Below are positions 1-32,964 of a stretch of 64,000 bases of DNA, piece by piece. Every line of letters begins with the position of its first letter. The stretch's first letter is position 1. Source of the DNA: Paramacrobiotus metropolitanus (lineage: Eukaryota > Tardigrada > Eutardigrada > Parachela > Macrobiotidae); contig NW_026570227.1 of the NCBI RefSeq assembly GCF_019649055.1, positions 1,550,001 through 1,614,000 on the forward strand, read 5' to 3'. The notes under the pieces are model-generated. The model was given only the letters and a program-made list of their open reading frames with translations, searched no databases and was not told the DNA's origin. Made by a program: the position numbers and the translations under genes.

Positions 1-1852
1 TATCGGGACATTGATCATCAACGTCATGATTGCGGCGGTGAACGGAGCGGTGCTGATGTTCTATTTCGCCAACTTTGCCGTGATCAAGGAATTTCACGTC
101 TATGTTGTAGCGCTGATGAGCACCAATTTCCTGTTTGCCGCTGTCTTTGGACCGCTGGATGTCATGAATCAACACGTCGGAGCGTGGTGCTGGGGCACCC
201 ATTGGTGTACGTTTCGTCTGTATTCCGGTACGGTCGCCATCACTCTGCAGTATCTGATCCATACCACCGTCGCCATGTGTCGCTGTTGCGCGGTGATCTT
301 CCCGATACAGTATCGCCATCGGCATAACACCCGCCTTGCCGTAGTTCTCTGCGCTCTGTGCTGCATAGCCGCTCATCTCTTAGTTGTCCCGATTCTCCTT
401 ATGGATGCTCTGCTTTACCGACAACCGGAAACCTTGGTTGGCTGCGACTTCAACTACCAGATGCTGCCGGTACAAATCTGGTCGTATATTTATCAAGCTG
501 TCACCTATCTTACACTGTTCCTGGTACTGGCTCAGTATCCGACGGTTTTGTACATTCGCCGCAAACGTAACCGGACCCTACGGCAGGTTGGGCCCGCCGG
601 ATCGAAGAAAATCGGTGAGCCTAGTTCTTTAAAGCAATTATTTCATCTCTGGGCTACAATACCTTTCCGAGACAGTCATATAACAGTTTGCAAACGCACA
701 AGCCAGTCTACAAACTGAGCATATAAAGGAACACGTACAAAAAAATCGGCGCATTGGCAGCACTATAATGATAGCCGCGATACTACAGTAGGCGTGTGCC
801 GGGATTTTGTATTTTTCGCTGTTCCAGTGTACTTTCAAGTATGCGAAATCTGTGGTCCGGCTTGTACAAGCCAGTCCGGAAATTTAAGGGAAGTGGCCCG
901 GTACTTGGTACCAAATTCGTGCGCGTGGATGAAAATGTTCACTTTCGCCTCCCACACACTTCTCTTCTGTTTTATGACATTACGAAGAGTCAGACATCTT
1001 TCTCTGTTGGCTGGTATACGGCCAGTGCAGCGCACCATGGTGCATAAGCTATGATTCATAGAGATAAGAACGGGTATGTTAAAAAACGGAGCTCTGCAGC
1101 GCGGTATCTCGAATACGTGCGGTGTAGTTGTTTTGACCATTCAGAGCGTAGATAAGCTCCGGATCGTGATGACACATGTTACTACTGCGCCTACCAGTCG
1201 TTTCTACTGCGCATAATGCACAAAAAACCTACATAGGCGTTGGAAGATACCCGAATGTCTGAATCTGAGCATTTGCTCTGTTTTATGACATTTGCCCGAT
1301 GATTTGCGTACATAGGCGTAAAAACCGTTTGTCATTATTATTATTATTATTATTATTTATTATTATTCGTGGAGCAGGTAGCCCATTTCCGGCTAGGGTG
1401 ACATTGTAGCATGGGATTTAAACTCCATCACTGCATGTTTGTCACTTGTCGTACTTCCTGTTTAGCCATCCTGCGAGCTCGCTGCTGTCAACTTGTATTA
1501 CAGTATTAAAGTCATACTTAATTGCGTACTTCTTTGCATACTACATGCATGCATGACATTCATCTTTACAGGTGATCAAAGACAGCCGGTCGCTGCGTCA
1601 TCAACACCATCAAACAACCAGAATACAAAACCGGAGAGCAACGCTTTTCTACTGCTAACGTTGCTGACGGGCAGCGTGTTCATCTTCTGGACACCGACGG
1701 CCATCGTCACGCCGTTGGTGGCCATGGACGTCGATCAGGTCGCTTTGGGCTGGGTTTTCGAGCTCATGGAAGTGCAGGCCATAGTCGATCCGATCATCTT
1801 TGTCTTGTCTCTGCCGGATCTGCGCCAGCTGATATTTCGACGAACTCTCTGA
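1..1852 (+). CDS. Rhodopsin-type (class A) GPCR, 5' end outside window
   Basis: Seven-helix receptor, presumably in the plasma membrane and coupling to G proteins; ligand unknown. Two exons are visible: up to 614 (helices 1-5) and 1572-1852 (helices 6-7). The junction GG|GTGAGC ... TTTACAG|G has phase 1 and keeps the frame. Seen: a helix-1 Asn (AAVNGAV), a Trp in the first extracellular loop (GAWCWG), Cys at the top of helix 3 (WCTF) and in loop 2 (VGCDFN), helix 6 with FIFWTP, helix 7 with VDPIIF, and a short basic tail ending LIFRRTL. The DRY motif is CRC and NPxxY is DPIIF, so both micro-switches are non-canonical. The first exon or exons, including the start codon, lie upstream of the window. 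It resembles no specific ligand family that I can name; an orphan, lineage-specific receptor is most likely. Confidence 0.8.
1333..1368. repeat. (TTA)n microsatellite in GPCR intron
   Basis: About 36 bp of TTA/TTAT units inside the 957-bp intron of the GPCR gene. Low-complexity tract with no further role visible. Confidence 0.85.
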
Positions 1853-2570: not shown

Positions 2571-3025
2571 TAACAATCATCCGGAGCATCAGCGGCCCGT
2601 GCGTTCCAGTAGTCGAGACGAAGGTACGCCTGATCTGCAGCGTTATTATCACTGACGCTCCGCAGCGCCGCCGCTAACCGACCAGCGTCCGTTCGATCCT
2701 CCGGCATCCACGTCCAACAGTTACGCACTAAAGCATATCTGTAGAAGTCGTTAAGACAAGCATTACTATTAAGTTAGTGTTCTCCGTAAAAAAACTGTAG
2801 CTGATCAGGAACCGCTTACTTAAGGCTGGAACATTCTGTCGGTCTATCCAAATGGAATCCATTTTTCAGCAGTGTCCATAAAGCTGATTTATGAGACTGA
2901 TCCGTTTCAGCATCGGCGCAGGAACACTACCCAAGCTGAATATTTTTCTATGACCACGCCCACTGACCACACATCCGATTTCAGCGAAAATCGTTCTGAC
3001 TGATGGATTCTGGGGAAATCCAACG
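2571..3025 (-). pseudogene. Receptor pseudokinase fragment (last two kinase exons), frameshifted
   Basis: Remnant of the receptor family represented by genes A (16432-19006) and B (24328-27088). The last exon (about 2571-2750) is still open: it reads a kinase C-lobe end with NCWTWMPEDRTDAGRLAAAL, the tail YLRLDYWNARAAD and a stop. The preceding exon (about 2815-3025) matches the RWxxPESI, SDVWSVGVV and ALWTLLKNG segments, but in three different frames, so at least two indels break it. No kinase N-lobe, membrane helix or ectodomain lies upstream on this strand. It is a truncated, decayed duplicate and probably makes no protein. Confidence 0.8.
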
Positions 3026-3579
3026 AGCGCACAGTGACCCGGTTCGTTTCAGTAAAAAACTATATGTGCTCGAGACGTTTTCGGGTGTGCGCGGCTCGTA
3101 GAGAACACGACGGGGGCACTGTATGTTTACGATAGCGCCCGATAGAGGCACCTTTGCATGTAACCGCCATCCTGGCGATTGTGCCTACGGTCTGTCGCCC
3201 ACGTTAGCTTTCACCAGAAAGCTCGAAATTTCAACTTTGAAGTTCATCTTCGCATTTCAAGTTTTCAGCTGGTGATCAAACTGGAAGATGTGAAGTTTTT
3301 TGGTTGGCTCTCTCGTTTTCGACGTCATCGTCAACCAAATCTGAATTCTAACAGAGAAGAAGCACCTTATAGTTTTCCTGAAGTTTTTGCGATATCGCAG
3401 TGAAATGGTTACGAATGGAGTTCTTCGTGCTTGTGCTAGTAAACACTGGAGAAAGCTGCTCTCTGATAGCTTATCTGCTTATGCGAAGAACTACTCTGTG
3501 GCAGCGCTTATAGCAGTCCAGAAAGTTTGCCAGCAACATCTGCTCCTCATAAAAAGAAATGTCCTAGCCGCATGAGACG

Positions 3580-4266
3580 ATGTCGTCAGTATCCAGCCAG
3601 TATGGTGCGCGAAAGGTTCAACATGGAGAAGGGAGAGAAACTGTTCGTTCCAGATTTCCATTCGCAAAGTAAGTATAAATTCGGCGATGTCACTTAAAGT
3701 TCTGTACAACTGCTTTATTTACTTGGTGACGAACAGAATATTAGAAGAATGCGCCGCCTTATTCTATCGTCAAACAGACTGCTTATCTCCACGTATGAAA
3801 TCTGATTTCTTTGCTTTTTGTTTTAGGATGCAGCAACCCAAAAAACAAGAAGCTGAGCAGGAGATGCCCAGAAAGATCGACTCTGGCCGCCAGATGGCTT
3901 TCCCGATATCAGGAAACATGAGCCTTTGGAATCAACTCAACAATGACGAAATCGTCGCAGATACGGAGATTGCCCATGGTAAGTTTGCTTTACCTTTTTT
4001 AGCAATATGTGGGTTCTATGCTCTGATAACAACAATAAAAATTCGAACGTGGCTAAGACAATTTTGTCAATTGGAAAATATGTAATGCCCCTCTTTCTAA
4101 ACATGACTTGTAACTTATAAGTCATGTTCTGAAAGAAGGCTCTTGTTTTGATTCTCGTGCACACGAGAAGCGATTAATTTTTTAAAAGTGCGTTTTTTTC
4201 GTAGGATCACTTGACAGCTACTGTTACAACATTTCTGCCGTGATTTCTGGAATACGAATTAAATGA
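3580..4266 (+). CDS. Candidate small three-exon gene, 100 aa, unknown function
   Basis: Model: exons 3580-3668, 3827-3978 and 4205-4266. Junctions are CAAA|GTAAGT ... TTTTAG|GATG and CATG|GTAAGT ... TCGTAG|GATC; phases 2 and 1 match exactly and give 100 codons plus a TGA. The frame has an upstream in-frame stop just before the ATG, and an AATAAA signal lies at 4473, about 200 bp past the stop. The protein begins MSSVSSQYGARK, is basic in its first half, and has a middle stretch NQLNNDEIVADTEIAH; no signal peptide, membrane helix or known domain is seen. Because no part is long enough to be convincing alone, the support is the concordant splice sites and poly(A) signal. A competing frame across exon 1 (reading KKKCPSRMRRCRQYP) is also protein-like, so the frame is not certain. 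Confidence 0.4.
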
Positions 4267-4472
4267 CAATATTGTCTGGGCCTCCCGAAGCACTCGAGCT
4301 CCTGTCTGGATACTCTCAGAAAATGTTTCTAGGTTTTATTTTCGTAATCAAGTGAATGTATTCTAATTTGTGTCTTCTGTACAGACTCTGTAGTTCAACT
4401 ATTTTAATTTTAACTAGCGCACTTTTAAATTTTATTTTGTCATTGATAAAAGCCGTGGTGTAACGATATCGT

Positions 4473-4478
4473 AATAAA
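4473..4478 (+). terminator. Poly(A) signal AATAAA
   Basis: Canonical AATAAA on the plus strand about 200 bp downstream of the stop of the small gene ending at 4266. It supports transcription of that unit on this strand. Confidence 0.4.
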
Positions 4479-4991
4479 ACCTGTCCGAACTCATCCTGTT
4501 ACGGTGGAAAACTGAAAAGGCGGCCGGAAATAATAGGTACAGTAGTTGTAACAGAATCGGCACGCCGTTACAACCCCTGTACTACAGATTGCGCACACGA
4601 TCCCAATGGGATAGTTACCCGTTTGCGGTCAGTTCGTCACCATATCCGCACGTTCTGCGGTACCACTTCGCGACGTCGCAAGTAACGTCAGGAAAGCGAC
4701 GATAACTCTACTTAAACTATACACGCACAAGACGGTGACACTGCACGATGAATAGGTTTTGAGCAACGCTCCGCAACGTCTCGAGAATCCCCGGCACACG
4801 TTAAAAAAGTGCCTGCTGTCGAACCGGGTGATTGCAACTCACTGACTTGTATAGGCGCGAGGCGCATTCGTGTAGAAACCAAAACACAACCCAAAACAAA
4901 AAAGTCCTAGAATGTACTAGCAAATAATGGAAAGTACGAGTAAAGCCGTCACTTTACGTACACATTGCTACTGTCTGCTATACCTATTCCG

Positions 4992-5294
4992 TCAAGGCAC
5001 CTTTTGGCCCTGGACGGGGCATTCGGCTCCTTGTCTTGTCATTCCGAAATCCGATATTTTCGCCACGTGATCTTCGCAAATGAAGATGTTTCGAGCCGCT
5101 AGTTCGCGGTGGACAATGGACAAGGCGCTGAGATACTGCATTCCCCGACAAATCTGACCGGCAAATTGCAACAACATTCGCGTGGACAGAAATTGCCCTT
5201 CGAATTCATCACTGCCAGTTGGCACTGCATTCTGCTTGCTGAGCACTTTGACCTTTTCTGCTTCGTCTTCGTCGTACCGGAGGATCGTTGTCAA
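4992..5294 (-). pseudogene. Kinase-domain exon of a C/D-type receptor, catalytic Asp changed to Glu
   Basis: A single open exon equal to the central kinase exon of receptor C (22560-22963). It carries the kinase-insert motif DEDEAEKV, then LSTRMLLQFAGQ, the catalytic loop HRELAARN, an intact DFG as ISDFGMTRQG, and a donor site (CAAAAG|GTGCCT). HRD has become HRE, which replaces the proton-acceptor Asp. The exon is cut at its 5' end around 5287-5294, where it meets, head to head, a plus-strand piece of an A/B-type kinase. No matching next exon (RWMPPE region) is found further along the minus strand. It is a truncated duplicate, almost certainly not translated. Confidence 0.8.
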
Positions 5295-6225
5295 ACAATT
5301 GTTGCTGTATGAAGAGGCGGAGTTTGGAACGCTTTCCAGTTACTTGAAAACGCACCGCGGTGTCTGGTTCTACAACCACGTCGATCCGACCGAAGAACTG
5401 TTGTCCTACAACCAAGAAATCGCCGATGAACGGCAGCACGCTGCACTGCGAACTTCTCCGGATTTTGTTCTCGATGGACACGATCGGCTGCTCCTGTCCA
5501 CCCGCATCCTGCTACGCTTCCCTCAGCACATCACGCAAGGCCTGCAAACCTTCACGCTCGCTCCATCATCCACCGCGATTTGTCGGCAGATAATGTCCTG
5601 ATTTGCGGCGGACAACTGGCCAAGACTGCGGGATTCGGAATGGCAAAGCATGCGATGGAGTATGCAGCAGGCACACTGTAAGCACAGTAGGCGAGATTTA
5701 TCGACCGAAGAAAGCAAAGTAGATAATTTCGCACGCCTTACAGCAATTATATGTCAAACAAGAACCGCTGAGCACTCGCGCCATGGCTCCACAATCTATA
5801 AGCGATAAGCGATTTTCGCCCAAACCGGATGAGTGGTCAACAGGCGTGGTCCTGTGGGAAATGTTCAGCCTGGGCCGCTCCCCGCACGCCGATGTCGAAG
5901 TGGATCCGTCTGATGAATTTGCTTTGTCGGCGTTGCTGAAAAACGGGTTCCGCTTGGAGAGACCAACAGCGTGACCTAGTTTTGTGTAAGTGGTACAGGA
6001 TTGACTTTATCGCTGGCTTTACTTGTACTTGTACTCTTGTAGTCAGTGTTTTGAATGGCTTCAGATACGCTTTAAAGGGTGACTGTTGGATTTGGATGCC
6101 GGATGAACGAACGGACGCTGGTCGGTTAGCTGCGGAGCGTGAATGATAACACTGCCGACCGGGTGTATCTTCGCCTCGACTACTGGAACACACAGGCCGC
6201 TGATGATTCGGATGCCTGTTGAACA
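5295..6225 (+). pseudogene. Receptor pseudokinase pseudogene (A/B type), three exons, broken
   Basis: The plus strand carries the last three kinase exons of the A/B family. Exon one (5295-5684) reads LLLYEEAEFGTLSSYLKTH, YNQEIADERQ and STRILLRF; it then shifts frame near 5545, after which HRDLSADN and AGFGMAK appear in another frame. Exon two (5783-5974) is open with SISDKRFSPKPDEWSTGVV and ends at a premature TGA. The last exon (about 6055-6220) reads MPDERTDAGRLAA, then hits a stop and a frameshift, although the tail DNA is still recognisable. The DFG position already reads GFG as in A and B, so the pseudokinase state predates this copy. The flank to about 6560 matches the A/B 3' flank. The 5' half is missing at the inversion point near 5290. 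Confidence 0.85.
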
Positions 6226-12614: not shown

Positions 12615-14099
12615 ATGGAAGGCCAAGAACATATTTTTATGAATCGTTTGCGTTTTTCCCTTAATCTATATAAAAGCATGTTGTCTCGTGCCTCAAAGAC
12701 CGATAATCTGTTAGTATCCCCTTTATCTGCCGAATTGGCTGCTGTTACGGCGTACACTGGAGCTCAAGGAAAAACACGAACTGAAATCGCGGAAGTTCTA
12801 GGCTTGATGGCGGATTACACAGTCGAGCGCATTTCTGACTGGTTAGCGCAAATGATCCGCGATGAAACCAAAGAGCTCGCCTTCGACGAAAACCTAGAAC
12901 GTAAGACGTGCAAAAAATGGCATTACTAGTCGATACCTGTCAGTGGCGAACTAAAACTCGTTTTTTAAGAGGCCAGATGATGACGATTGATGAGATTTCG
13001 ATTTTTCAGAGTGGTGCCGAAACTTCGAACTATCTTCTTGCGTTGGAATGTTCGTCGATGAAAGTGTTCGTGTGATCGAACGTTACACCGAAAGCGCACA
13101 GAATCTCGTCAACGCCGCTTGTTTGCCAGTGCCATTTGCGAGCGACCCGGATGGTGCTTGGGAAAACGTGAGAGCCTTCATAACGACGCCAACCAAAGGA
13201 AAAAGGCCGAAAATCCTTGATTCCTCAAAAATTACGCCGCCTACTAATTTAGTGTTGGCGACAACTATCAATTTTCGATCGAACTGGGCGGAGCCTTTCG
13301 ATGAAAACCAGACCGTTAAAAAATGGTTCACCCTGGCTTCGGGTGCCAAGATTCAGGTGGACACGATGCACGGAACGTTTACTCGTTTATTCCAATATCA
13401 CAAAAGCTGGAGGTTGCATGGCGCTAAAATCCTTCAACTGCCGTATTTGCGATTATGCTGCAAAGCCTATATCATCCTCCCGAGCAAGAGAACTTGGTAC
13501 TCTTGTCCACTGCGCAAAGACCGGCTGCGGCATCTCGAAGACCTGTTGACACCCAAACGCCTGCTACAGGAACTGAGCAAAGTAGACTATCCCCATGTTG
13601 TATATGCGGAGATACCGAAATTCTGCCTGCAACACACCATGGCGGTGGACAAATGCCTCGCGGAAATGGGCATGACCACCGCGTTCTCCGCCGACGCGGA
13701 CTTGTCCGGAATATGCACACGGTCCCCTCTGAACATTTCCGCCGTCTCCCAGGCAGCAGTTTTCGGTGAGCTCAGGTCACTGATTTCTTAGGGTTTTCAG
13801 ACCTTAAGGTTATAAACATAATGTATATGTGTGCCGCATATGAAAATGATATTTTATTGACGCATTGTAAACAATCATAAGCTAAATTGCGTACGCTTCA
13901 TTTGAAGTTTTGCGTTTCAGGGTTCGACGAAAACGGCAGCGGCTGTGGCCCCGTAAAAGTGGATCAGTACATGTTCATGTCCACGTACCCGCAAAGTCGA
14001 GTGAAGTTCATAGCCAATCGGCCGTTCTTGTTTATTGTATGCCATATAGAAACCAACACGATTCTGCTGATGGGACGCGTTTGTAACCCTCTAACCTGA
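12615..14099 (+). CDS. Serpin-family protein, 406 aa, probably intracellular and non-inhibitory
   Basis: Exons 12615-12900, 13010-13765 and 13921-14099; all junctions are GT-AG, phase 1, and give 406 codons. It begins MEGQEHIF with no signal peptide, like intracellular serpins. Family landmarks: LLVSPLSAELAAVTAYTGA (helix B), NLVLATTINFRSNW and FDENQTVKKWF (sheet A, shutter side), IPKF before the breach, and the closing strand RPFLFIVCHIETNTILLMG then RVCNPLT. The length is normal for a serpin. Inhibitory serpins need a small-residue hinge (EGTEAAAAT-like) ahead of the reactive loop; here the segment is DENGSGCGPVKV, with Cys, Gly and Pro at the hinge and no alanine run. That predicts a poor or non-inhibitor, perhaps a chaperone or storage role. 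An earlier ATG at 12546 is in frame, but 12615 fits the family start. Confidence 0.88.
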
Positions 14100-14357: not shown

Positions 14358-15618
14358 GCACCCGGACAATTGGGAGTGTGACATTTCGCCGCACTCAAAC
14401 TCGACGCGCGACTTTTCGCCGCGAAGACATTTCGTCGGCGGACATTCGGACGCTGGGACACTTCGGTTTGGGACTTAATGTTTTGAGACATTTAACCTTT
14501 GCGACATTTCGACGCAAGACATCTGGCCGCGGACAATTCGTCTTGGGACTTTTCGAACGATGCGACTGATCACCGCAAAATAATTAGCCGCTCTTAATTT
14601 TCACTAGTTTTTTTCAGTTTTTTTAGGTTTGTTCTTAGTTTTCTTTGGTTTTCTAGTCCTTCTTAAGCTTTCTTAGGTCGTCTTATTTTTTCCTAGGTTT
14701 TCTTAGGTTTCTTAGGTTTCTTAGGTTTCTTAGGTTTCTTAGGTTTCTTAGGTTTCTTAGGTTTCTTAGGTTTCTTAGGTTTCTTAGGTTTCTTAGGTTT
14801 CTTAGGTCGTCTTATTTTTTCCTAGGTTTTCTTAGGTTTCTTAGGTTTCTTAGGTTTCTTAGGTTTCTTAGGTTTCTTAGGTTTCTTAGGTTTCTTAGGT
14901 TTCTTAGGTTTCTTAGGTTTCTTAGGTTTCTTAGGTTTCTTAGGTTTCTTAGGTTTCTTAGGTTTAGGTTTCTTAGGTTTCTTAGGTTTCTTAGGTTTCT
15001 TAGGTTTCTTAGGTTTCTTAGGTTTCTTAGGTTTCTTAGGTTTCCTAGGTTTCTTAGGTTTCTTAGGTTTCTTAGGTTTCCTAGGTTTCTTAGGTTTCTT
15101 AGGTTTCCTAGGTTTCTTAGGTTTCTTAGGTTTCTTAGGTTTCTTAGGTTTCCTAGGTTTCCTAGGTTTCTTAGGTTTCTTAGGTTTCTTAGGTTTCTTA
15201 GGTTTCTTAGGTTTCTTAGGTTTCCTAGGTTTCTTAGGTTTCTTAGGTTTCTTAGGTTTCTTAGGTTTCTTAGGTTTCTTAGGTTTCTTAGGTTTCTTAG
15301 GCTTCTTAGGTGGTTCATTTGGTTTCTTCGGTTTCTTAGGTTGTTCGTTCGGTTTTGTTTTCCTGTTCACTTTTTCTGTCTCTTTTAGTTAGCTCAGTAA
15401 ATCATGTATCTGGAATCCGAAATGTCGCTTCGTCGAGATGTCCTTGCGACGAAATTTCCTTGCGTCGAAACGGCTGTGCGTCGGAAAGTCTCGCGGCGCA
15501 AAGTCCTACCGACGAAATGTCCTCCGACGAAACGTCGCGCGGCGAGATGGCCTTGCGGTGAAATGTCTGCGACTAAAAGTCCTGCGACTAGTTGTCTGCG
15601 GCGAAATGTCGCGGTGCC
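14358..15618. mobile_element. Foldback-like modular element FB1
   Basis: Three parts. The left arm (14358-14575) is built of degenerate units around gacatttcgccgcg. The core (14626-15345) is a 9-bp tandem array tttcttagg. The right arm (15415-15618) is built of the reverse-complement unit cggcgaaatgtc. The two ends differ: one is cacccggacaattgggagtg-like, the other ggcaccgcgacatttcgccg. The same two ends, arms and core recur in the opposite orientation at 20318-20682 and 32351-32964, with core and ends flipped together, so this is one oriented family. No transposase is encoded, and no clear target-site duplication was found. Confidence 0.7.
14626..15345. repeat. (TTTCTTAGG)n tandem array
   Basis: Roughly 70 copies of a 9-bp unit with a few ttt-ccta variants. 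The block taggtcgtcttattttttcc occurs twice (near 14670 and 14806), so part of the array was duplicated as a ~136-bp unit. Long minus-strand ORFs over it (K-K-P and L-R-N repeats) are artefacts of a 9-bp unit without stops in two frames. Confidence 0.95.
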
Positions 15619-16431: not shown

Positions 16432-19006
16432 TCAACCTGTATCCGAGGCATCAGCGGCCCGTGCGTTCCAGTAGTCGAGACGAAGGTACGCCTGGTCCGC
16501 AAAGTTGTCACTGACACTCCGCAGCTCCGCAGACAGACAAGCAGCGTTTGTCCGTTCATCCGGCACCCACATCCAACAGTCACGCATTAAAGCGTACCTG
16601 CAGCCAGCCAACAACGCATAGGCAGCTTATTGCAAATAGTGCAGCAAAACAGGTAATCGTGCACCACTAACATAAAACCAGGACAACCTGCCGGTCTATC
16701 CAAACGCAATCCATTTTTCAGGAATGCCCACAAAGCGGACTCGTCAGGCTGAACTGCTTCCACATCGCCGTACGGGAGCCTACTCAGGCTAAATATTTCC
16801 CACATGACCACGCCCACTGACCACACATCCGAGTTTGCCGAATACCGCCCCTCACTAATCGATTCTGGAGCCATCCAACGAGTGCGCAGCGCTTCCTGTT
16901 CGGTAAATTCATTTACGCCGCCAGTTATTCTCGTTTGGTGAAAGAGAACAGTACCTGCGCATTAAGTGCAACATACTCCGTCGCATGCTTTGCCATTCCG
17001 AATCCGGCAATTTTCGCCACTTGTCCGTTGCAAATCAAGATATTATCTGCCGATAAATCGCGGTGGATGATGGAGCGAGCGTGGAGATATTCCAGGCCTT
17101 GCGCGATATGCTGAGCGAAGCGTAGCAGAATGCGCGTGGACAGGAGCAGCCGATCGAATCCCTCCTGACCTTCTCCCGGTGGAATGCGGAGTGCAGCCTG
17201 CTGCCGTTCGTCAGCCGTTTCTTGGTTAAAGGGTAACAGTTCCCCGGTCAGATCGACGTGGTTGTAGAACCAGACACCGTGATGATCTTTCAGGTAACTG
17301 GAAAGCGTCCCCAATTCAGCGAATTCATACAACAACAGCAGATCGCCTAAACAGGTACTACCAACTGCAGATAGACATAACGCTAATTGCTAAATCCTAA
17401 ATTGTAAGCGCACCTTTGCGGACAACTCCTAAAAGAGGAATTATATTCATGTGTTGGCCGGTGACTGTCATAATCTCCGCTTCTTCATCCAGTTGCCGAC
17501 GTTGGCTTGATTTAGGAGCGGCTTTTGAACTTTTTGCCGCCACAGCCGTCAGACTGCGCTCCCCGTTCAGGTCTTGGACAAACCCCTTTCGCACAACGCA
17601 AATCACGCTCTCATTTAGAATTCTATCTGTATCTGCAAAAGGCGCAGCGAACACTTGATATTATGAGGTTGATACGTTCCCATAAAACGGGCCACGGTTG
17701 CACGAACGTTCATGAAATTAAATTCAAATGCCAGCCACATAGGTCATTTTTCAATTTCACCTAATTGCACTCTGGCCAAGGGAATTTCCAAACATCCAGT
17801 GCGCTGCGCCGAGTTCAACTGCACAGTATTTGCATGTGTATCAGAAAGCGGAGGACTGGCTAATCCGCTGAGCATCATGTGCAAGCCATTGGCCAGATTG
17901 ACCTTCTCCATGTTCCCGTGCTTCGCTCGCTTTCGCTTCCCAAGAAACCACACGAAAGCAACAGCTAACGCGATAAAGGTCACGGGAATGATGCTGCATA
18001 AAAGCACTTTTGCAGCAAAACCTGTCAATGCACCGATGACCTTTAGTGGTAAGGCGAACATCACGAGACAATTTGGCTACCGGTGTCTGATCGAGTGGCG
18101 TTGGTGTATTGTAGGACCGACACGTAGTCCACCAGTAATTCTTGGTAGGGCGCCTCGCTTTCCTTATAAGGAAAATCCGGCTGGGAATACTGCGCTTCGT
18201 TCATCAGTGCGATCACTATGAACAGCCGCGGCCACATGGACAGTCCGGGCACGGTGTCATTGGAGACCATCGTGTCGTCGACGAACCAGCCCAGGAAATC
18301 GCGCGTCCACACCAGCTTGAAGAGATGGTAACCAGTGGACAGATCCGCATCACTACAATCAGGCAGTTCACTCTTAGCTTTTGGATCATTTAACCGTGCG
18401 GTGCCAAGTAAAAGCCTGTCCCGTAATTTCCACCGCATTACCACTGCGATAAATACCGATTCACGGGTACGCCAAACTCTGTCTGAGTACTTACGTAAAG
18501 AAATGATGCTCAGTGCGGGTCTCGTTACCGGCGGCATCCGGATACAAGACGACGCTCTTGAGGTGATGAGTGGCCGTGGACGTGCTGTCTAATTCAGCTA
18601 CAGGCAGCAGTTCTTCATCGGTGCAGTTGTGCTGTGGAGTGTCTTTGCACGGGGCCAACAAGATCCAGACTTTAGCATTGCGATTGCTGGGAACCGGATA
18701 TTTGGCTCGTAGGATCAGTTCTCCGTAGGTGAAGTTGAACTTTCCTCCCGTGCTGATCCGCGTCCCCGTCGGTCGGATTATCGAACCGTTGTGCAGGCTG
18801 CCCGTGCCCAGCACCAGTTGACCGTTTCGCAGCCGCAGATTGTCCGGCTCTAAATAATCTCCTCCAACCTCTCCGGGCGGGTACTTGTGCCACCAGGCAT
18901 CGTTCAGAACGTCGCTGTTGAAATCGTCTCGAAAAATCTCAACCATGTCACAACTGACCCAGTAAAAAGTGGCAAAGAAACACACGATGGTACAACTCCT
19001 GCTCAT
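16432..19006 (-). CDS. Receptor A: GH16-like ectodomain, membrane helix, tyrosine pseudokinase (681 aa)
   Basis: Exons (minus): 19006-18495, 18352-18081, 18021-17761, 17632-17414, 17346-16955, 16895-16672, 16597-16432; every junction is GT-AG and in phase, giving 681 codons. Residues 1-19 are a signal peptide. Residues ~20-260 read as a GH16 beta-sandwich: EIFRDDFNSDVLN, RISTGGKFNFTYGE, VWTRDFLGWFVDD, LLVDYVSVLQY. The catalytic ExDxxE is not kept (ELLPVAELD). The membrane helix (~266-290) is followed by KRKR. The kinase domain keeps the beta-3 Lys (AVAAK), HRDLSADN and MAPESI, but the Gly-rich loop is LNESVICVVRKG and DFG is GFG (KIAGFGMAK). A catalytically dead signalling receptor is expected, at the plasma membrane and perhaps sensing glycans. 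It starts head to head with gene C 860 bp away. The tail has YLRLDYWNA, a possible phosphotyrosine docking site. Confidence 0.88.
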
Positions 19007-19865
19007 TTTTCCCCTACTACAGTTGTTATTTTGTCACAAAAATTGTGCCGTGTTTAGTGCTTAGTAGTGGTAGAATTCCACGCCTAAATGTGTTCCGATT
19101 GTCGCGCAGCGGATATCAAGCGTCCTAATGGCTGCGGGGCGTTTACAAAAAAAAACAACGTTATCGACGTCTGTCACAGCCGGGTTTGGAAAATAATCTG
19201 TACGACAGCCGCCGCAGTGCCACGTCGTATCAGCAGCACAATACTGTCTACGACTTGCCAGACTAGCATAGAAAAAGCGTATCGAGTAGCGTACCTGAAA
19301 TTAGAAATCGGTTAGTATTCTGCTTGCCGTGCTGCCGTAGCAGCTGCCATGTTTTCTAGTCTCCCGGTGTGTCGCGAAACGCGAGTGCTTCGCTGTGCTA
19401 CACGATCTGAGCATCTAACGATTGCCGGTGCACGAACCACCAGGCCGATAACGAGGTAGTGAGTCACGGGAGTGTTGCTTTACCGTTAGAACTATGCTCT
19501 GCTCCATTCCAAAGCCAATATTGGAGGCAGATCAGTAAACCATTGAAACCGGTTTATACGCTTAAGACGCATGCTATTCAGTCACGTAAAGATTTAACGT
19601 ATGTTTCACTGTATCTGAACGAACTGGTTTTACGGATTTTCACAGCCCTGCAGCTCCTTGCTGTTTAGCTTGATGGTTGTTTTAAGCTTTCCTAAAAAAA
19701 CTATTTGGTATTTATGCCGGCCGTGCATTCTACCAGTTTTCGGTCTAGTTGCAATTTACTGTAACCGTAGAAGTAGTGAAGTACAGATAATGCAAGTATG
19801 AATTTCAATATTTAGTTACTTTACTGCGAGCCTGCAGCCTCGATGCACCAGTGCCAATAACGACG
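19007..19865. promoter_or_regulatory. Bidirectional promoter of receptors A and C
   Basis: An 859-bp gap between the divergent starts of A (minus) and C (plus). It holds the palindrome AACCGGTT (19547-19554), the canonical Grainyhead/CP2 site, then tatctgaacg, then ccctgcagct (19646-19655). The same ordered block occurs in the promoter between B and D, once in full at 27596-27703 and once partially at 27301-27487. No clear TATA box. Shared regulation of both receptors is inferred from the arrangement. Confidence 0.55.
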
Positions 19866-23518
<3,653 letters not shown>

Positions 23519-23900
23519 GTTCGCACATGCGGGCATTCTCAGATGAAAACTGTCTTTTATAACCTTGTGTCCCGATGGAACTTGTAATAACAGGAATCCT
23601 TGGCGAGAAAATCAATAAGAGTCATGAGAGCTGCCTAAACGTTCATCAATCCATCAAATGCCATCAAACGTTTGCTAAGCCAACTGCGCAGGTTCCGTGA
23701 TGATTTGACATTCGTGCACTCAACAGCAGTTCCTGTCAGAACCGCAGACGTGGGTACCTGCACCAACCAAAATTTCATTTTTTTCTTTCGCAATTTGTCA
23801 CGACTCACGTATCCCGTAATATTTTCGTTTCTTTTGAATTTATTGAGTCAGTAAACGACTCACTGTGATTGTCCGACTTTCAACTAGTAAACGTTAAACG
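23519..23900 (+). promoter_or_regulatory. Receptor C 3' flank, then BTB-Kelch-type promoter block
   Basis: From about 23780 the DNA matches the region upstream of the BTB-Kelch gene at 38098: cgactcacgtatccc, then a tttattnagtcagtaaacg block, then the start codon. The promoter piece was duplicated together with the first-exon fragment that follows. Confidence 0.5.
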
Positions 23901-24006
23901 ATGTCGAAGCGAAAACGTCTGACAACGATCGCCTTGCTAATGATTATCTCTCTGTGGGGTCGCTGCGCAGACTGCGCGAACAGCAGTCGACGGGGACGTT
24001 CTGCAG
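23901..24006 (+). pseudogene. BTB-Kelch first-exon fragment
   Basis: It begins ATGTCGAAGCGAAAACG and reads MSKRKR, as the complete genes at 34109 and 38098 do. Homology runs on through ctgcgcgaacagcagtcgac, but a frameshift ends the reading frame. At about 24006 the exon breaks off in mid-BTB and is joined to receptor-kinase 3' flank. It is a rearrangement scar; no functional product is expected. Confidence 0.75.
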
Positions 24007-24327
24007 TTAATCGCAGGTTGCCTATCAGTTTGCGACACGTCTAAAGGTCATATATTGAAATCCTTGAACGACGATTGGACTCATTAATTCGTGCCTATCT
24101 GCGTAGAAACAAAACCTGTAATGGCAGCCATTTGGCGCACCGTAATCAAATCTCTACTGAACTGCAGTTGCTTATTCTACCAAAAATCTCCATCAGTTTA
24201 TGGCAAATGACAGTTTTGTTGTGAGCGAAACTCACGAAAGGAGTGCCGATGCTCTAATAGTGCTTATTAAAGAAACGTGTCTGAGCAACTAATTAGAAAA
24301 CGTTAGTCCCGAATTGTAGATACAAGG

Positions 24328-27088
24328 TCACGGGGTTACAGCCGAATCTTGTTGACATGCATCCGAAGCATCAGCGTTCCAGTAGTCGAGACGAAGGTAC
24401 GCCTGGTCGGCAGTGTTATCATTGACGCTCCGCAGCGCCGCCGCTAACCGACCAGCGTCCGTTCGTTCCTCTGGCGTCCACATCCAACAGTCACGCATTA
24501 AAGAGTGCCTGAAGCCATTCAAAAACACTAACTAAAAGGCTATAGTTAAAAGCGCCAGAGCTATAGTTAATCCTGCAGCACTCACACAAAACTAGGACAC
24601 GCTGCCGGTCTCTCCAAACGCAACCCGTTTTTCAGCAACGCCCACAAAGCAAATTCATCAGACAGATCCACTTCAGCATCGGCGTACGGAGAGCTGCCCA
24701 CGCTGAATAATTCCCACAGGACCACGCCCACTGACCACACATCCGAATTCGGTGAAAATCGCTTTTCCTTAATCGATTCTGGAGCCAACCAGCGAGTGTT
24801 AAGCGTTTCCTACTCGACCCGTTTTCGATTTATTTCCGCCAGCAAAGCCGAAAGCTAACCTAGTCAGTAAAGCTAGCCTACTGTGTCTACAACGTACCTG
24901 AGTATTAAGTGCGATATACTCCGTTGCACGCTTTGCCATTCCGAATCCCCCAATTTTGGCCACTTGTCCGCCGCAAATCAAGACATTGTCTGCCGATAAA
25001 TCGCGGTGGATGATGGAGCGAGTGTGGAGGTATTCCAGGCCTTGCGCGATGTGCTGAGCGAAGCGTAGCAGAATGCGCGTGGACAGAAGCAGCCGATCGT
25101 GTCCATTGAGACCAAATTCCGGTGGAGTTCGGAGTGCAGCGCTCTGCCGTTCGTCGGCTATTTCCTGGTTGAATGGCAACAGCTCTCCGGTCAGATCGAT
25201 GTGATTGTAGAACCAGACGTCGCGATGTGTTTTCAAGTAATTGGAAAGCGTTCCAAACTCCGCCCATTCGTACAGCAACAGCGGTTTGCCTAAATATATG
25301 CGCTTGCAGCAATGTGCACGGATAAATCGTAACACACTGCGAACCTTTTAGGATAACTCCCAGCAGAGCAATAATGTTCATGTGTTGACCAATAGCTGCC
25401 ATAATTTCCGCTTCCTCGCGCAGTTGCCGCAGCTGGCTGCTGGGGGCTGCCGAACGTTTAACCGCCGCAGCCGTTAGACTGCATTCCCCGTACAAGCCTT
25501 CCACAAATCCTTTTTGCACGATACAGCTTGCGCTTTCGCTGAGAGTTCCGTGTACTTAAAAGTAGCAACGTAATTTTTTGAAAATGAATCGGAACAGAGC
25601 AAATTAAATTATGTCGGCGTAAACAAATTCGAACTTAGTTGACAAGTTCTCCGGAGAGTGTTGAGGTTGTGTAAAGAATACGCTTTACTGCAGTACCTTC
25701 AGATAATGCTTGCATCTCACCTAATTGCACTCTGGCTAAAGGAATCTCCAGACACTGAACGCATTGCGCAGATTCCGCTTGGAAAGTGGATGTCTGTGCG
25801 TGAAAAGGCGAGTACGCACTTAAGCTGGATAACACACTGCTCGCCATTTGCAGGACGTTGGCCACACTAGCAGTTTTCTTCATGTTTCCGTGCTTCGCTC
25901 GCTTCCGTTTGACAAGGATCCACAGGAGGGCCAAGGCCAATACGACAAAGATCACCGGTACGATGCTGCTTAAAACCATCCCTGAAGCAATCCCTGTAAA
26001 AGTGACTTTTGGTCTCGGCGCCACTGCTGCGTCAAAGAAGGAAATAGAGTTTTAATACCAGTATTCGACCGAGTTGTGTTGGAGAACTGAAGGACCGAGA
26101 TGTAATCTATTAGCAGTTCTTGGTAGGGCGCCGCGTTTTCTTGGTAGGGGAAGTTCTCTGGCGCGGAATACAGTATCTCGTTCATCAGTCCGACCACGAT
26201 GAACAACCTGGGCCACGTGGACAGCCCGGGCACGGTGGCATTGATAACTAGCTGGTCGTCGACGAACCAGCCCAGGAATTCGCGCGTCCACACCAGCTTA
26301 AAAAGATGGTAATCCGCGGAAAGATCCGCATCACTGCAACCATTCCTTTCTTTAGGTCTTCCTCCTTGTCATGTATTCGTTTAATACAGCTTTACTGATA
26401 CTGTGCCGGCAGTCAGCTGCCTGCTAAACAGTGACCTACGGGTATGTACGTAAAACATTGGGGCAACCATACCGTTGTCAACCGCAAGGTCATAGTACAT
26501 CACACTCCTTAAAACTTTCGTAGCCGGATTTCGGGCGTGGTGAAATCTTATAAAATAATGCGCTTACATGTGCACATGGTCGCTGGTGAGGTTCCTGTTA
26601 CCGGCGGCATCCTTATGTATGGTCCTACTGGTAAGAAAATGCGTAGCAACGGATATGCCCTCTAACCCGGGTATGGGTACCAATTCGTCGTCGGTGCAGT
26701 TATGCTGTGGAGTGTCCTTACATGGATGCAGCAAGATCATCGATGTGGCTAGATGATTGCTGGGAACGGGCAGTTTGGCGCGTAGGGTCATTTCCCCGTA
26801 GGTGAAGTTGAACTTGCTCCCCGTGCTGATCCGCGTCCCCGTCAGTCTGAACGCAGATCCGTTGTGTCGGCTGCCCGTGCCCAGCACCAGTTGACCGTTT
26901 CGCAGATGCAGATTGTCCGGTTCATACAGATTCCCCTGAATTTCTATGGGTGGTGGTTTAATCCACAGGGCATCGTTCAGAACGTCGTCGTTGAAGTCAT
27001 CTCGAAATATTTCAATCAAGTCACCACGGACGAGGCGAACAGCGACAAAGACACAGAGCATCGCAAACCGCTTATGCATTCTTCGCAT
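24328..27088 (-). CDS. Receptor B: GH16-like ectodomain, membrane helix, tyrosine pseudokinase (691 aa)
   Basis: Exons (minus): 27088-26568, 26333-26059, 25993-25721, 25554-25345, 25289-24898, 24809-24586, 24508-24328; all phases match receptor A and the last-but-one exons have identical lengths (392 and 224). It gives 691 codons without a stop. Domains: signal peptide, GH16-like region (IEIFRDDFNDDVLN, RISTGSKFNFTYGEMTL, VWTREFLGWFVDDQLV, LLIDYISVLQF) with the catalytic motif lost (ELVPIPGLEG), membrane helix then KRKR, and a kinase-like domain. The loop LSESASCIVQKG has no glycine triad. HRDLSADN is kept and DFG is GFG (KIGGFGMAK); TRWLAPESI and YLRLDYWNA follow. Predicted catalytically inactive receptor, sister of A. 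It starts 770 bp from, and opposite to, receptor D. The intron between exons 2 and 3 is only 65 bp. Confidence 0.88.
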
Positions 27089-27856
27089 TCCTTTACACTA
27101 AGCTTTTTGTTGTTTACCAAAAAATGGTTCAGTAATGTTAAAATTTTCACATAGACGTGTATTGCGGCTGTCGCATCCAGCGTTATATAGCTGCTAGGCA
27201 TTTACAGCAAACAAATACAGCTACTGCTGTTTTTTGTAGCTTTATGCCTTGATATACAAAGTCAACGGTTGACTTGTGAGAAGGATCCCTATACCACAGA
27301 AACCGGTTAATGCGCTTGACAGTTCGACAAACGTGCTTGTCGATCACGTTTCGATGAAGCGTACGAGTATGATGCGATAATAATACTGTAAGCGCATCAA
27401 AAATAATAAGCGTAATAAGCGTATCAGAAATGATAAGCGTAATAAGCGTAAAGAAGGCTTACTACGGATTTCTGCTGCCCTGCAGCTGCCGGCTGATTGA
27501 TGATTTTTTTCGGCTGTTGAAAAGAAACTACATGTCGACTATTTATCTAAGCAGTTTGTCTAGCTGTGATCTGCAGCAAATTAGTAAGCTACCGAAACCG
27601 GTTTATGGGCTTCACCAACGTCTTTTCGATCACGTGCCCATTCAACGTACGTGGGTATCTGAACGCACTAATTTTTTTTACCGATTTCCACAGCCCTGCA
27701 GCTGTCAGCTACTTGATTATTGTTTTCGTTAGTTTTTGAACTTTTTAATGAGAGTACATGTCGACTGTTTAAAGTAGTTTTTGTCCGACTAGTTGCGATT
27801 TACATCGCGCGACAAACATGTACGGTTCTTAACGGTTCTAGTGCGAATAAAGAAGG
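27089..27856. promoter_or_regulatory. Bidirectional promoter of receptors B and D, with duplicated module
   Basis: Two AACCGGTT palindromes (27301-27308 and 27596-27603), each followed by ccctgcagct (27478-27487 and 27694-27703). The second block aligns with the A/C promoter over about 150 bp (gaaaccggtttat, tatctgaacg, cagccctgcagct). Between the modules lie tandem ataagcgta units (about 27395-27452). The module appears to have been duplicated within this promoter. Confidence 0.55.
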
Positions 27857-28541
27857 ATGGCCTTCAAGCAGTCTGCTGCTTTACTGACCGCAGCGGGATG
27901 GATCGGGCTGTACTTATACTTCCTCGCCGCACCGGTCGGTGCCGAGGAAGATATGACGGAGATTTTCGGGGACGATTTCGAAACACTGGATCGCGAACAA
28001 TGGGATATTCTACAAGCGTCTGGCACATTCGGATTTTTTGATGCGCGAAACGTCCGCGTGCAGGATGGGGTAATGGCGCTGAGAAGCAGTATGCAGTGCA
28101 TCAACGGTTCACTGTACCGCAACGTCACCCTCCTCCGAACAAGGAGCTTCACGTTCAGATACGGCGAGATGCTGATCCGCTCCAGGTCCCCAAACACCTC
28201 CAGAGCGAAGGCATACCCCTCCCCGATGTGATGGTTGAAGCGTTTCAACCTTACTGTTTTACCTTCAGTATCTTTGAGCTCATACCCAATGCAACTTGGC
28301 GCACACGTGAATTACATACCACCGTCCGGCAAGGTAACCAATTATGGTCGAATGTACCACAGGTATGTCCACGTCCAGCAGATATAATAGCAATAATCGA
28401 TGTGATATCTGTTTTATCCTTCAGTGGTTGAAACGTTAGGTGTTATTGGCAGGGCTGCCGGTTTTAACCGAATTGTTGCATTGGCGTACTTTTATTGGTC
28501 AAATGAAAAACGCGATACACAGATACAAAAGACACGCAAAA

Positions 28542-29775
28542 CTATAACAGAAAAATTTCGTTACGCATATCTAGCCCTTCCATCGTGCCCAGCACTGATG
28601 CCGCATTTCCCCGTTGAATTTCTATGGACAAACGCTGCCGAATGAATTCATGCGAGCGTGCTTCTCTGGTGTGCTGCTGCAGTCTTTTTCTCAGATCTTT
28701 GATGATTACGATCGCCGACGGTCCCCACGGGCCAAGCGTTTCGAAAGCGATCGGAACGAAGAGGTAGCGGCCAGCAAGATATAAGTATAGTCTTGATTTC
28801 TTATCCTCCGTCTGCACGGCGGCCGCTCCCGGCGTGGTGGAAGTGGCTTTAACGTGTGACAGCGCAACTGTGTCTACACAGGTCACATCGGTCACATCCC
28901 ATGCGAGACACAATCCGCGTTTCCAGGAAAATGTTTTGCAGCCGTCCGGGCGACATTCAGATGTGTGAGAAGTGCCGCGTGGCTCCAGTTTCGCAGGCAC
29001 ACCAGCGGATACAAACCCCCTACAAAGGATGCTATTTAAACCGCCGTGACGCGGATGCCGTCCGACGGGAAAAGCACATGACAGCCCATGGTGTCCGTAA
29101 CCATCTACAGCTTTATTGCATTTGGTGCAGTCGTGGGGGTCACAGATGGTGGCACCGAGGCGGAGACAAGTGCTGATCTTCAGCTCGTCGTCGCCCAATA
29201 GGTTAGCAATGTGAGCGGACGGTAAGGCATTCAACTAGAAGCTGGCTTCTGGTCTTCACCGGGCAAGCAGGCGAGCTGTGTGAAACACCTCCAGCGGTGC
29301 CGCAAGAGTTGCATAATGTCCCAGGACTTTTGGAACTTCCGAAACGCATTTTTATTGAAGATCCGGTTGACGAGCTTTTAGTTTCCATGATTACGACGCA
29401 CCAGTAACGTCAACAGCGGCGTGGTTAGGCAGTAGTACATACAGCAAGCCGGACACGGAATGAATCGAAGCCAAGTAGGCTGGAAGGGATAATTCTTCCG
29501 ACCGGAGGATGCCGATTCCACCTCAGCTAACAGGAAGAGTTGTTTGACGCCAAGGCGGGTAGTCATGGTGGTTCGACAGATTTCGTCCTAACGTTCGACA
29601 GATTCTGGAAGCAAGAGCGCATCGCTTCATCCAGCTGGTACAGTAATGCGGGGTATTTCCACGCATTACAGCACCGCAGCATATAGATAACTTTCGGGGC
29701 GCCGAGACAGTTTTTCAGGAGAAACAGTGCTTGATGGCTAGGTAGTAGTTGAAGTCGCTCACACATCAACCTCAA
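28542..29775 (-). mobile_element. LINE 3' part (reverse-transcriptase protein C-terminus)
   Basis: The longest retroposon copy here. From the 5' side it shows LLPSHQALFLLKNCLGAPK and YMLRCCNAWKYPALL (region after the RT palm), a broken stretch at 29235-29560, and then an open 230-aa end with CKTFSWKRGLCLAWDV, FVPIAFETLGPWGPSA, RQRLSIEIQRGNAASV and LGTM. A CxxC near DPHDCTKCNKAVDGYGHHG suggests a zinc knuckle. It is frameshifted and 5'-truncated, as is usual for dead LINEs, and is antisense within an intron of receptor D. Confidence 0.8.
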
Positions 29776-29784
29776 GGTGCTGGC

Positions 29785-30285
29785 CTTTCGTTGAGCAGAG
29801 GTGCTGGCCTTTTCGTTGCTTCATCCAGTACAGGTGCACGCAATTTGCTTACCGACAATTTGCTTTCCTTCAGTTGTCTGCCTTTCTGCCCGAATTTTTT
29901 GCTGAAAGTACTTCAGTGACCGACAGTTTGCTTACCGGATTTTCTAGCGTTCTTAGTGTTTTTTTTTAGTTTCTTTGGTTTCTTAAGGTTTTCCCATGTT
30001 TTTAGAATTCTCGGGTTCATTTGTGTTTCTATGGTCTGTTTACGGTATTAAGTTTGGTCTATTTCGGGTAATATTCCTAAGATTTCTTGTTCGGTTTCTT
30101 AGAATTTTGTAAGCTGTGGACTTCGGGAAGCTCGTATGTACAGATAGGTCATCAAAATGTAAGTGTTCAGCAAACCGTCGCTCAACAACCTGCCGATCAC
30201 CGAGTTATCGTTTCAGCAACTTGTCGGGTAAACATTTTGTCGGCCGGCAAATCGCCGGAGTGCCGACAACCGGACTGGGGACCTC
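29785..30285. mobile_element. Degenerate foldback-like element FB4
   Basis: Left arm words such as gcaatttgcttaccgac, a core with ggtttcttaag words (about 29940-30110), and right arm words cggcaaatcgccgg ending near gacaaccggactgg. The layout is that of FB1-FB3 but strongly diverged. It lies in an intron of receptor D. Confidence 0.5.
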
Positions 30286-31613
30286 ACTGACTATCACTAC
30301 AATGCAGCAATCGAGACCTGTCACGTGACTACCATATTCAGCGCCTGATCTGGACGAAGGAACGTATGGAACTGCACATGGACGGCATCCACATCCTCAA
30401 CCTCACCGTTCCGGGTCTGGACAGCTGGCCCGCACTGGGCATAATGCTGGATACATCCATAGACCCAGGGACTCTTGTCGCACCGGTCGCCGACGCTGAC
30501 GCGTGCGTAAGTCCGGCGTTGGAATGGTCGCACGAATGGCTGATAGATTACATCATTGTGCGGCAGTACAGGAGCAACGTGCACCAAGGTAATATCGCTG
30601 GCAACAGCGACCAGGATCGTCGCTGCCCTTCTTCAAAGTTTCTGTGCTTCCAGAGGGTGGCGTTCAGATCACGTTGGGCGTGGCAATTCCGTTAGCAGCC
30701 GCAGCGTTGGGAATTATTCTGTGTCTCATCCTGCTGCGCCGCGCCCGACGTCGCCGTATCGAGCGAACCATGTCCAAACTGACGATCGTCGCTTCCAGGG
30801 CAAGCAACCCGTACCTGACAGCATTCGAGTTCACGGCCGAAGCTGCGGATTTGCTCACCAATGAATGGGTGCGAGCCATGGAAATCCCTCTGGCAAATGT
30901 GCAAACGGGTACGTACTTACGTTATTGTCTCACGTTTGCCTGAAATATTGGCTCGTACAGACATCACAAGTGAAGCGTTTTCTTGCAGCCGAAATAGTTT
31001 TGGGGCGAGGCGCGACGAGCGTTGTAAGTAAAGGCGTGGTCGATGGGCTTGCCGGTCAGCCACGCCTACTCGACGTCGCAGTGAAAAGTGTTCGAGACCA
31101 CAGCGAAACGGTGGAAAGACGACAATTGGTTCAAGAATTGAAAGTTATGGCAAAGCTCAACTGTCATCCGAACATTGTCCGCCTCATCGGCGTCGCATTG
31201 AGAGGTGACGAATCGCATTAAACTGCAGCATTCGAAGCTGACCACGGACTGGTTTTAGGCGAACTTCTCTTGGTTGTCGAGTAGACAAAATTTGGTTGTC
31301 ACCGGTATTTGTTCAAATCACTCAGCGTGAAACGCTTTTACAGCCATGTCAGTCCCGATGGAACCATCCTGCCGTACGACGAAGACGAAGCGGAAAAATC
31401 AGACTCTTAAGCAAACAGACGGCAGCACCACTGAAGTTAGATCGCTAACAGTGTGTCAGTCGTCGTACTTCACTAAAGTATTAAAAATAGTAGTAGAATA
31501 CACGAAAAAAATATACTCGTATACAGTAAAATTAACAGATTGTTGAGAAACATTGGAGCATGGACGTAGATCGAACATGCCGAAAGCGGTATCAACTCCG
31601 TTTGGTCGCACAG

Positions 31614-32350: not shown

Positions 32351-32964
32351 GGCACCGCGACATTTCGCCGCCGACAACTCGTCGCAAGACTTTTGGTCGC
32401 AGACATTTCGCGGCAAAGTTATCTCGCCTGGCGACGCTTCGTCGCCGGACATTTAGCCGGCAGGACATTACGCCGCGAGACATTTCATCGTCCGGCCGTT
32501 TCGACGCCGAAACATTTCGCCGCTGGGCTGTTTTGACGAACGAACAGAAAACCTAAGAAACCTAAGAAACCTAAGAAACCTATAAGAAACCTAAGAATGA
32601 CATAAGAAACCTAAGGATAACCTACGAATAACCTAAGAAACCTAAGAATAGCCTAAGATTAACCTAAGGCTAATCTAAGAATAGCCTTAGAACAACTTAA
32701 GAAGCCCAAAGACCTAAGAAAACCTCCCAAGAAACCCGGAAAACCTGCAAAAATTAAGCTTGTCGAATGCTTTTGCGGCGAGTGTCCGCGACCAGACGTC
32801 TTGCGTCAAAATGCCGCAAAGTCAAAATGTCTCAATGCTAACTGTCCCTAACCGAAGTGTCCCAGCGTCAAAATGTCTCACGGCGAAATTTCTTCGCGGC
32901 GAAAAGTCGTGCGTCAAAAATTTAATTGGGACGAAATGTCACACTGCCGAATGTCCGGGTGCGG
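32351..32964. mobile_element. Foldback-like modular element FB3
   Basis: Left end ggcaccgcgacatttcgccg, about a dozen gacatttcgccg-like units to about 32530, a core of cctaagaaa and cctaagaata words (32548-32750), then right-arm units such as cggcgaaatttc, ending gccgaatgtccgggtgcgg. The orientation is as in FB2. No ORF of transposase type. Confidence 0.7.

Follow-up and report, generated by a model that had tools for sequence, protein, structure and literature searches.

Receptor genes A to D

The analysed stretch of DNA, hereafter the window, is 64,000 nucleotides long and comes from the tardigrade Paramacrobiotus metropolitanus (RefSeq assembly GCF_019649055.1, contig NW_026570227.1, positions 1,550,001 to 1,614,000 of the forward strand). 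It contains four genes, A to D, of a family in which a GH16-like ectodomain, related to laminarinases, is combined with a tyrosine-kinase domain. The genes are arranged as two head-to-head pairs, A/B and C/D. Positions are counted from the first letter of the window.

Gene A is located at 16432..19006 on the minus strand. Its model consists of seven exons (18495-19006, 18081-18352, 17761-18021, 17414-17632, 16955-17346, 16672-16895, and 16432-16597) coding for 681 amino acids, with a signal peptide, a GH16 domain, a membrane helix, and a pseudokinase-type tyrosine-kinase domain. The GH16-like ectodomain corresponds to 18081..18946 (exons 1 and 2, separated by the intron 18353-18494). The only membrane helix is encoded by the exon at 17761..18021, together with the motif LEIPLARVQL of the juxtamembrane region, and the kinase exons occupy 16432..17632. 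Gene C, at 24328..27088 on the same strand, shows the same layout. It is also of the pseudokinase type and has seven exons (26568-27088, 26059-26333, 25721-26026, 25345-25554, 24898-25289, 24586-24809, and 24328-24508) coding for 702 amino acids.

Both gene models have GT-AG introns and are stop-free across all seven exons. The GH16 profile PF00722 (E = 5.7e-6 in A and 5.8e-8 in C) and, downstream of it, the tyrosine-kinase profile PF07714 (E = 2.9e-60 and 2.5e-58) are above the Pfam cut-off in both proteins. Hydropathy, on which all signal peptide and membrane helix calls are based, indicated a single strong membrane helix between GH16 and kinase and a weaker hydrophobic stretch at the N-terminus. 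The layout of a receptor tyrosine kinase (RTK), that is, signal peptide, ectodomain, one helix, and tyrosine-kinase domain in one predicted protein, is therefore present in A and C. The predicted membrane helix speaks against A and C being secreted proteins similar to GNBPs. CBM39 is not among the Pfam matches of either protein up to E = 1. In a Nei-Gojobori comparison of A with C, dN/dS amounts to 0.33 for the ectodomain and 0.28 for the kinase, and it ranges from 0.28 to 0.33 over four parts. The low ratio in both domains indicates that selection has kept A and C as proteins.

Gene B is a receptor of the R1 clade (described below), located at 19866..23518 on the plus strand and divergent from A. 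The order of domains is the same as in A and C: ectodomain pieces (19962-20105 and 21092-21355), helix and juxtamembrane region (about 21942-22222), and kinase pieces (22290-22511, 22571-22969, 23111-23338, and 23396-23482), which are well readable and contain the glycine loop GRGATS, HRD, and DFG. The first ectodomain exon of B has an in-frame TGA at 20151..20153 (plus strand), caused either by mutation or by an assembly error. By eye, the DNA behind this TGA is repeat-like.

Gene D, divergent from C at 27857..31401 on the plus strand, is a remnant of an R1-clade receptor. It retains ectodomain pieces (27953-28207 and 30309-30569), helix and juxtamembrane region (about 30638-30909), the first kinase exon (30988-31209), and a kinase fragment (31288-31401). 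No further part of the D kinase was found, and 112 of the 307 kinase profile positions are covered. Between the ectodomain and helix exons, both B (about 21500-21910) and D (28540-29234) contain related coding-like DNA on the minus strand, as seen by eye. The two share 80 bp at 82.5% identity and are perhaps retroelement remnants; a Pfam search with the longer frame gave no match. Other remnants of the family are kinase fragments without ectodomain at 2654..5291 (minus strand) and, divergent from them, P-clade kinase fragments without ectodomain (HRDLSADN, AGFG) at 5296..6137 (plus strand).

A preliminary description of this DNA assigned the full architecture to all four copies. It holds for A and C, based on the seven-exon frames, the Pfam matches, and the helix, but not for B, with its in-frame TGA, or for D, with its truncated kinase. 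The motifs quoted there (EIFRDDF, KFNFTYGE, GWFVDD, and DYVSVLQY) belong to A and C. The description mentions neither the changed DFG and glycine-loop motifs of A and C nor the head-to-head arrangement of the four genes. The damage in B and D, the kinase fragments at 2.6-6.1 kb, and the pseudokinase motifs of A and C described below could mean that A to D are decaying relics, pseudogenes or near-pseudogenes of a once useful array. This is quite unlikely, considering that A and C have complete frames with low dN/dS in each of the four parts, including the kinase, and that other members of the family look intact and are catalytically competent by motif.

The family in the genome

The genome (169,799,020 bases in 533 contigs) was searched, and 44 stretches were fetched from the matches. 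Their profile matches, along with those in the initial 34 kb of the window, were sorted into 66 gene groups. Below, loci are designated by L numbers and contigs by C numbers. The 66 groups do not represent a census, as some matches (for example, on C520) are outside the fetched set, and one group (L006) merges a receptor with two kinase-less GH16 genes (L006 688-3838).

Both domains are present on one strand in 47 of the 66 groups. Thirteen groups have GH16 only and six have the kinase only, several of these being at fetch borders. Kinase pieces for the ectodomain-only groups L024-447 and L027+8616 are located in L023 and L028, just past the border. A third such group, L020-420, is also at a border. 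In 39 groups, including A and C, at least 150 of the 233 GH16 positions and at least 200 of the 307 kinase positions are covered on one strand. It is predicted from these sequences that the genome encodes dozens of surface receptors with a catalytically dead glucanase-fold ectodomain and a tyrosine kinase.

Some receptors on C25 and C144 (in L014, L023, and L025) have two tandem GH16 domains. At L030 and L031, GH16 and the helix are followed by a short tail with YENT and a stop, and no kinase is present in the fetched stretch; it is possible that they are kinase-less co-receptors. Nine loci were spliced automatically with the intron phases imposed from A and C, and the conserved phase is thus not independent evidence. 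The L005 model produced in this way misses the juxtamembrane motif and was disregarded; in those of L010, L012, L014, and L035, the first ectodomain exon is missing. Lipocalin matches in the genome, examined for tardigrade SAHS proteins, resembled ordinary fatty-acid-binding proteins among the best 60 of 249 PDB matches.

Ectodomain and kinase in one gene

Search matches of this family fall exon by exon, and a GH16 gene and an adjacent tyrosine-kinase gene, duplicated as a block, could be misread as one receptor. The 13 groups with GH16 and no kinase in the fetched stretch, at least three of them at fetch borders, would be compatible with such a block. The distances between ectodomains and those between kinases, compared for 41 genes, are correlated (r = 0.74; 0 of 5000 permutations), and 27 of the 41 genes have the same nearest neighbour in both; joint copying of two linked genes would give the same agreement.

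Several sequences speak against two separate genes. At L037 (G000:C130:320910-322106), GH16 (E = 2.4e-12), the helix, and positions 1-43 of the kinase profile (E = 5.4e-4) are encoded in one frame of 399 amino acids. This kinase start is a fragment below the Pfam cut-off, with more kinase pieces downstream. In L001-L004, L006, and L007, a single open frame encodes the ectodomain, then the helix, and finally the motif LLEI(P/S) of the juxtamembrane region. When the kinase query of L001 is made to open with this motif, matches to PDGFR-alpha begin at query residue 3. The seven exons of A and C are read through without a stop. With this evidence, the two-gene explanation is very improbable. An artefact of chance or of neighbouring genes was rejected in view of L037 and of the single-frame exons for ectodomain, helix, and juxtamembrane region. 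The union of ectodomain and kinase in one gene, as first proposed, was confirmed as far as DNA shows, by the seven-exon genes A and C and the L037 frame.

Fold and catalytic site of the ectodomain

The ectodomain of A was predicted together with 19 paralogs (mean predicted local distance difference test score, pLDDT, 76.9; predicted template modelling score 0.79). The loop at the lost catalytic site is poorly modelled (pLDDT about 40-55). Laminarinases are at the top of the structural matches in PDB, with a Foldseek E-value of 4.2e-17 for 3azx and, for 8xph, Z = 24.8 with a root-mean-square deviation of 2.4 Å over 223 residues. Only glycoside hydrolases are present among the best 50 matches. 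The ectodomain sequence of L004 also matches laminarinases (E = 1e-33), and PF00722 is above the cut-off in L002, L004, L006, L026, L036, L037, and L040 as well. The assignment of the ectodomain to GH16 is supported by Pfam, with the cut-off passed in A and C, and by the laminarinase match of the fold predicted for A.

The catalytic motif E.D..E is conserved in only one of the 53 GH16 pieces covering those columns, the piece from L026. The commonest non-catalytic triple is A-S-D, seen in 11 pieces. The B and D pieces are outside the catalytic columns and are not among the 53. In the aligned columns, A has P/A/D and C has P/P/E, with an uncertain placement of columns due to the poorly modelled loop. 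Judged by the motif, A and C do not read as active GH16 glucanases. L026 (G000:C25:1200800-1204500) is a GH16 gene with the intact catalytic motif EIDVME, and the 3.7 kb fetched for it contain no kinase. This gene is possibly a living relative of the enzyme that gave rise to the ectodomain.

Two laminarinase-like features, the WPALW strand (or a close variant) and the GG.F.G.PD..T.FP loop, are conserved in L001-L006, and the loop of L004 aligns with the same loop of laminarinases. Neither of the two, common to the other copies and laminarinases, is present in A or C. The loop is absent in B and D, whose pieces do not reach the strand region, and in the R-clade pieces that span the loop region. 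With both motifs lost, A and C may bind something other than a glucan, and the direct sensing of beta-glucan suggested in the preliminary description stays a hypothesis.

These losses, with the loss of catalytic residues in 52 of the 53 pieces, would also be expected if the proteins were ordinary RTKs with a protein or a hormone as ligand, and if GH16 served in them only as a beta-sandwich scaffold that had given up sugar binding. The clustered, diverging copies are compatible with an arms race over any ligand. A scaffold alone need not keep the WPALW strand and the loop, as L001-L006 do, and this explanation is considered somewhat unlikely. The ectodomain reads rather as a lectin-type domain derived from a glucanase, and the sugar-binding step is best supported outside the window.

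Kinase domain

The ATP-binding lysine is conserved in all 44 N-lobe pieces with letters at the site. In the C-lobe pieces with letters at the site, the HRD aspartate is conserved in 47 of 51 and the DFG aspartate in 35 of 51. These counts are for pieces, not for genes, and L007 enters three times. In the receptor at L007 (2303-3439 of the reverse complement), the catalytic segment of the kinase occurs three times in frame, with HCD instead of HRD; this repetition could be an assembly artefact.

The full set of motifs for a competent kinase is present, in sequence, in the B kinase, L001, L002, L004, L005, and L006, among others. A and C keep the lysine (AVAAK in A) and HRD, but the glycine loop is lost (NESVIC in A) and GFG is present instead of DFG. 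Both proteins are therefore predicted pseudokinases. The tyrosine-kinase assignment of the preliminary description thus stands for the domain, with PF07714 above the cut-off, and is qualified for its activity in A and C.

In comparisons with PDB sequences, an EGFR-named entry came first for both L001 and A. Among the best 60 matches, it is followed by PDGFR, VEGFR, FLT3, FGFR, and KIT for L001, and nearly all other matches of A are from the FGFR/PDGFR/VEGFR group. The kinase domain may therefore be most similar to this group, as judged from database matches topped by the EGFR-named entry.

Head-to-head pairs

Three clades were recognized in FastTree trees of the kinases and of the ectodomains. 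The P clade, which includes A, C, and their relatives, has a local support of 0.94 for the kinases and 0.98 for the ectodomains. The R1 clade, with B and its relatives, is supported at 0.98, and at 0.99 with D in the ectodomain tree. The support of the R2 clade is 1.00 in the kinase tree and 0.99 in the ectodomain tree. Clade labels were read from the trees by hand; those of D, L034+, L020-420, and L027+8616 are from the ectodomain tree only and that of L008-7070 is from the kinase tree only.

The clades differ at the DFG motif. By hand count of the genes showing the site, the aspartate is conserved in none of nine P genes, all seven R1 genes, and none of seven R2 genes (six with HFG and one with GFG). 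The fragment at 2654-5291 of the window falls in the P clade of the kinase tree, yet it has DFG.

In all nine labelled pairs of divergent neighbours in the clusters, a P gene is next to an R gene, and their profile matches are 699-1472 bp apart. Nine mixed pairs of nine were reached in 256 of 100,000 label shuffles among 11 P genes and 14 R genes. The count does not include the two divergent sets of fragments at 2.6-6.1 kb, as the member with DFG is unlabelled. The R partner belongs to R1 in four pairs and to R2 in five. Because R2 partners are also without DFG, both members are probably inactive in these five pairs, as far as can be read from the motif.

In the window, the region between A and B (19007..19865, 859 bp) is a candidate shared promoter. 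A 133-bp segment of the region between C and D (27089..27856, 768 bp) matches the A-B interval (71% identity, E = 1e-12); it may be a repeat. A-B and C-D look like copies of one pair, and these pairs are not independent. The divergent arrangement suggests that P and R members are co-expressed partners.

Other features of the window

A rhodopsin-type seven-transmembrane receptor is encoded in one open frame at the edge of the window (2-715, plus strand; PF00001, E = 4.1e-16). A serpin gene fragment, also in one open frame, is located at 12994-13788 (plus strand; PF00079, E = 3.1e-40). Several Kelch-like frames are distributed on both strands at 31600-59000, suggesting a Kelch gene cluster. Two of them (40108-40833 and 50998-51672) were confirmed with Pfam and the others were recognized by eye. 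A Kelch-like fragment begins just past the truncated D kinase.

Tandem repeats are also observed. An array of 711 bp at 14632-15342 consists of 78 copies of the 9-base unit TTCTTAGGT. Related units are present at 32550-32725, and visual inspection shows them within B as well, near 20450. At 60086-60646 and 60684-61124, a tandem repeat of 89 bases (6.3 copies) adjoins a 10-base repeat (44 copies, 99% match).

Interpretation and comparison with known systems

It is fairly probable that these genes represent an expanded RTK family with a dead GH16 (laminarinase-type) ectodomain, one helix, and an FGFR/PDGFR/VEGFR-like kinase, in which lectin function, receptor clustering, and pseudokinase co-receptors are the inferred parts. 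The ectodomain would act as a lectin for a glucan or another polysaccharide, or for something else in the most diverged copies. Binding of the polysaccharide would bring receptors together, and active members would then trans-phosphorylate. The predicted pseudokinases A and C could serve as co-receptors or scaffolds for the receptor encoded divergently next to them, much as HER3 does for HER2. With these receptors, cells may be able to detect sugars that come from microbes or food. Immune recognition of microbes would be the most likely use, and feeding or cuticle sensing is possible.

Several points weigh against this interpretation. Because A and C are devoid of both laminarinase-like motifs, carbohydrate binding appears weakest precisely for the intact genes of the window. 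A dead-plus-active pairing is possible in only four of the nine pairs, and DFG of the R partner is actually seen in three (B, L009-, and L034-). With the damage in B and D, the proposed partners of A and C in the window may be non-working. Dimerization, the type of ligand, and the immune role are putative.

A more extensive proposal is rather doubtful. It would regard the family as a recognition system of the tardigrade lineage, in which dead-glucanase receptor kinases, many in head-to-head pseudokinase/partner pairs with a shared promoter, are obligate heterodimers that directly sense microbial or algal polysaccharides and replace the GNBP-Toll-NF-kB route. According to PMC7056985, GNBPs act in the Toll pathway of flies, and GNBP1/3, intracellular Toll components, and NF-kB are reported missing in tardigrades; GNBP1/3 homologs were undetected in any sample of that study (data not shown there). 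If the lectin step is correct, the family would be a concrete candidate recognition system for tardigrades, in which no homologs of GNBP1/3 or NF-kB were detected in that source. The repeated P/R divergent pairs would be a natural series for how pseudokinase co-receptors arise.

Taken separately, both RTKs and lectin-like GH16 proteins are known. In agreement with the preliminary description, no animal RTK with such an ectodomain was found described among the open-access papers listed in literature searches (in two of them, 12 of 2,945 and 15 of 3,484 papers), subscription literature and domain databases aside. The main text of a holozoan kinome survey (PMC8662651) contains no words beginning with "glyco" or "lectin", and the section consulted, the domain-list figure aside, does not name a GH16 RTK. 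A term search in PMC5531438 found neither "tyrosine kinase" nor "glucan". Annotations of tardigrade proteomes may well list the GH16-kinase architecture without comment.

GH16 laminarinases (endo-1,3-beta-glucanases; PtLam 8xph, Thermotoga 3azx, and ZgLamC 4crq) resemble these receptors in the fold of the whole ectodomain (Z = 24-25 for A) and in sequence, as seen for L004. Unlike laminarinases, the receptors are membrane-anchored and joined to a kinase, and E.D..E is absent from all GH16 pieces examined except that of L026. Insect GNBPs, or beta-glucan recognition proteins, have a non-catalytic GH16-like domain and are similar in their candidate use in microbe recognition. They are secreted proteins, often with an N-terminal CBM39, and are located upstream of Toll. 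In contrast to these extracellular proteins, the GH16 domain is here on a receptor kinase, with a predicted helix in A and C.

FGFR, PDGFR, and VEGFR share with this family the helix and the order of domains, and they resemble it in kinase sequence as far as the database matches indicate. The ectodomains of the human proteins are of the immunoglobulin type, instead of GH16. HER2 and HER3, a pair of an active kinase and a pseudokinase, are similar in the logic proposed for P and R members. Their ectodomains are unrelated, the partnership in this family is inferred only from divergent gene pairing, and, unlike in HER2/HER3, the R2 partners of five of the nine pairs also lack DFG.

A parallel in working layout is seen in plants. 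In plant lectin receptor kinases and in the chitinase-like CHRK1, a ConA-like or dead glycosidase ectodomain is placed on a single-pass kinase, and the direct polysaccharide-sensing design is known from plants. These are Ser/Thr kinases of the IRAK/Pelle type, and the difference in kinase type is accompanied by an independent origin. If the lectin step is correct, animals would also have evolved a direct polysaccharide-sensing receptor kinase, apparently by the joining of a glucanase-derived domain to an RTK.

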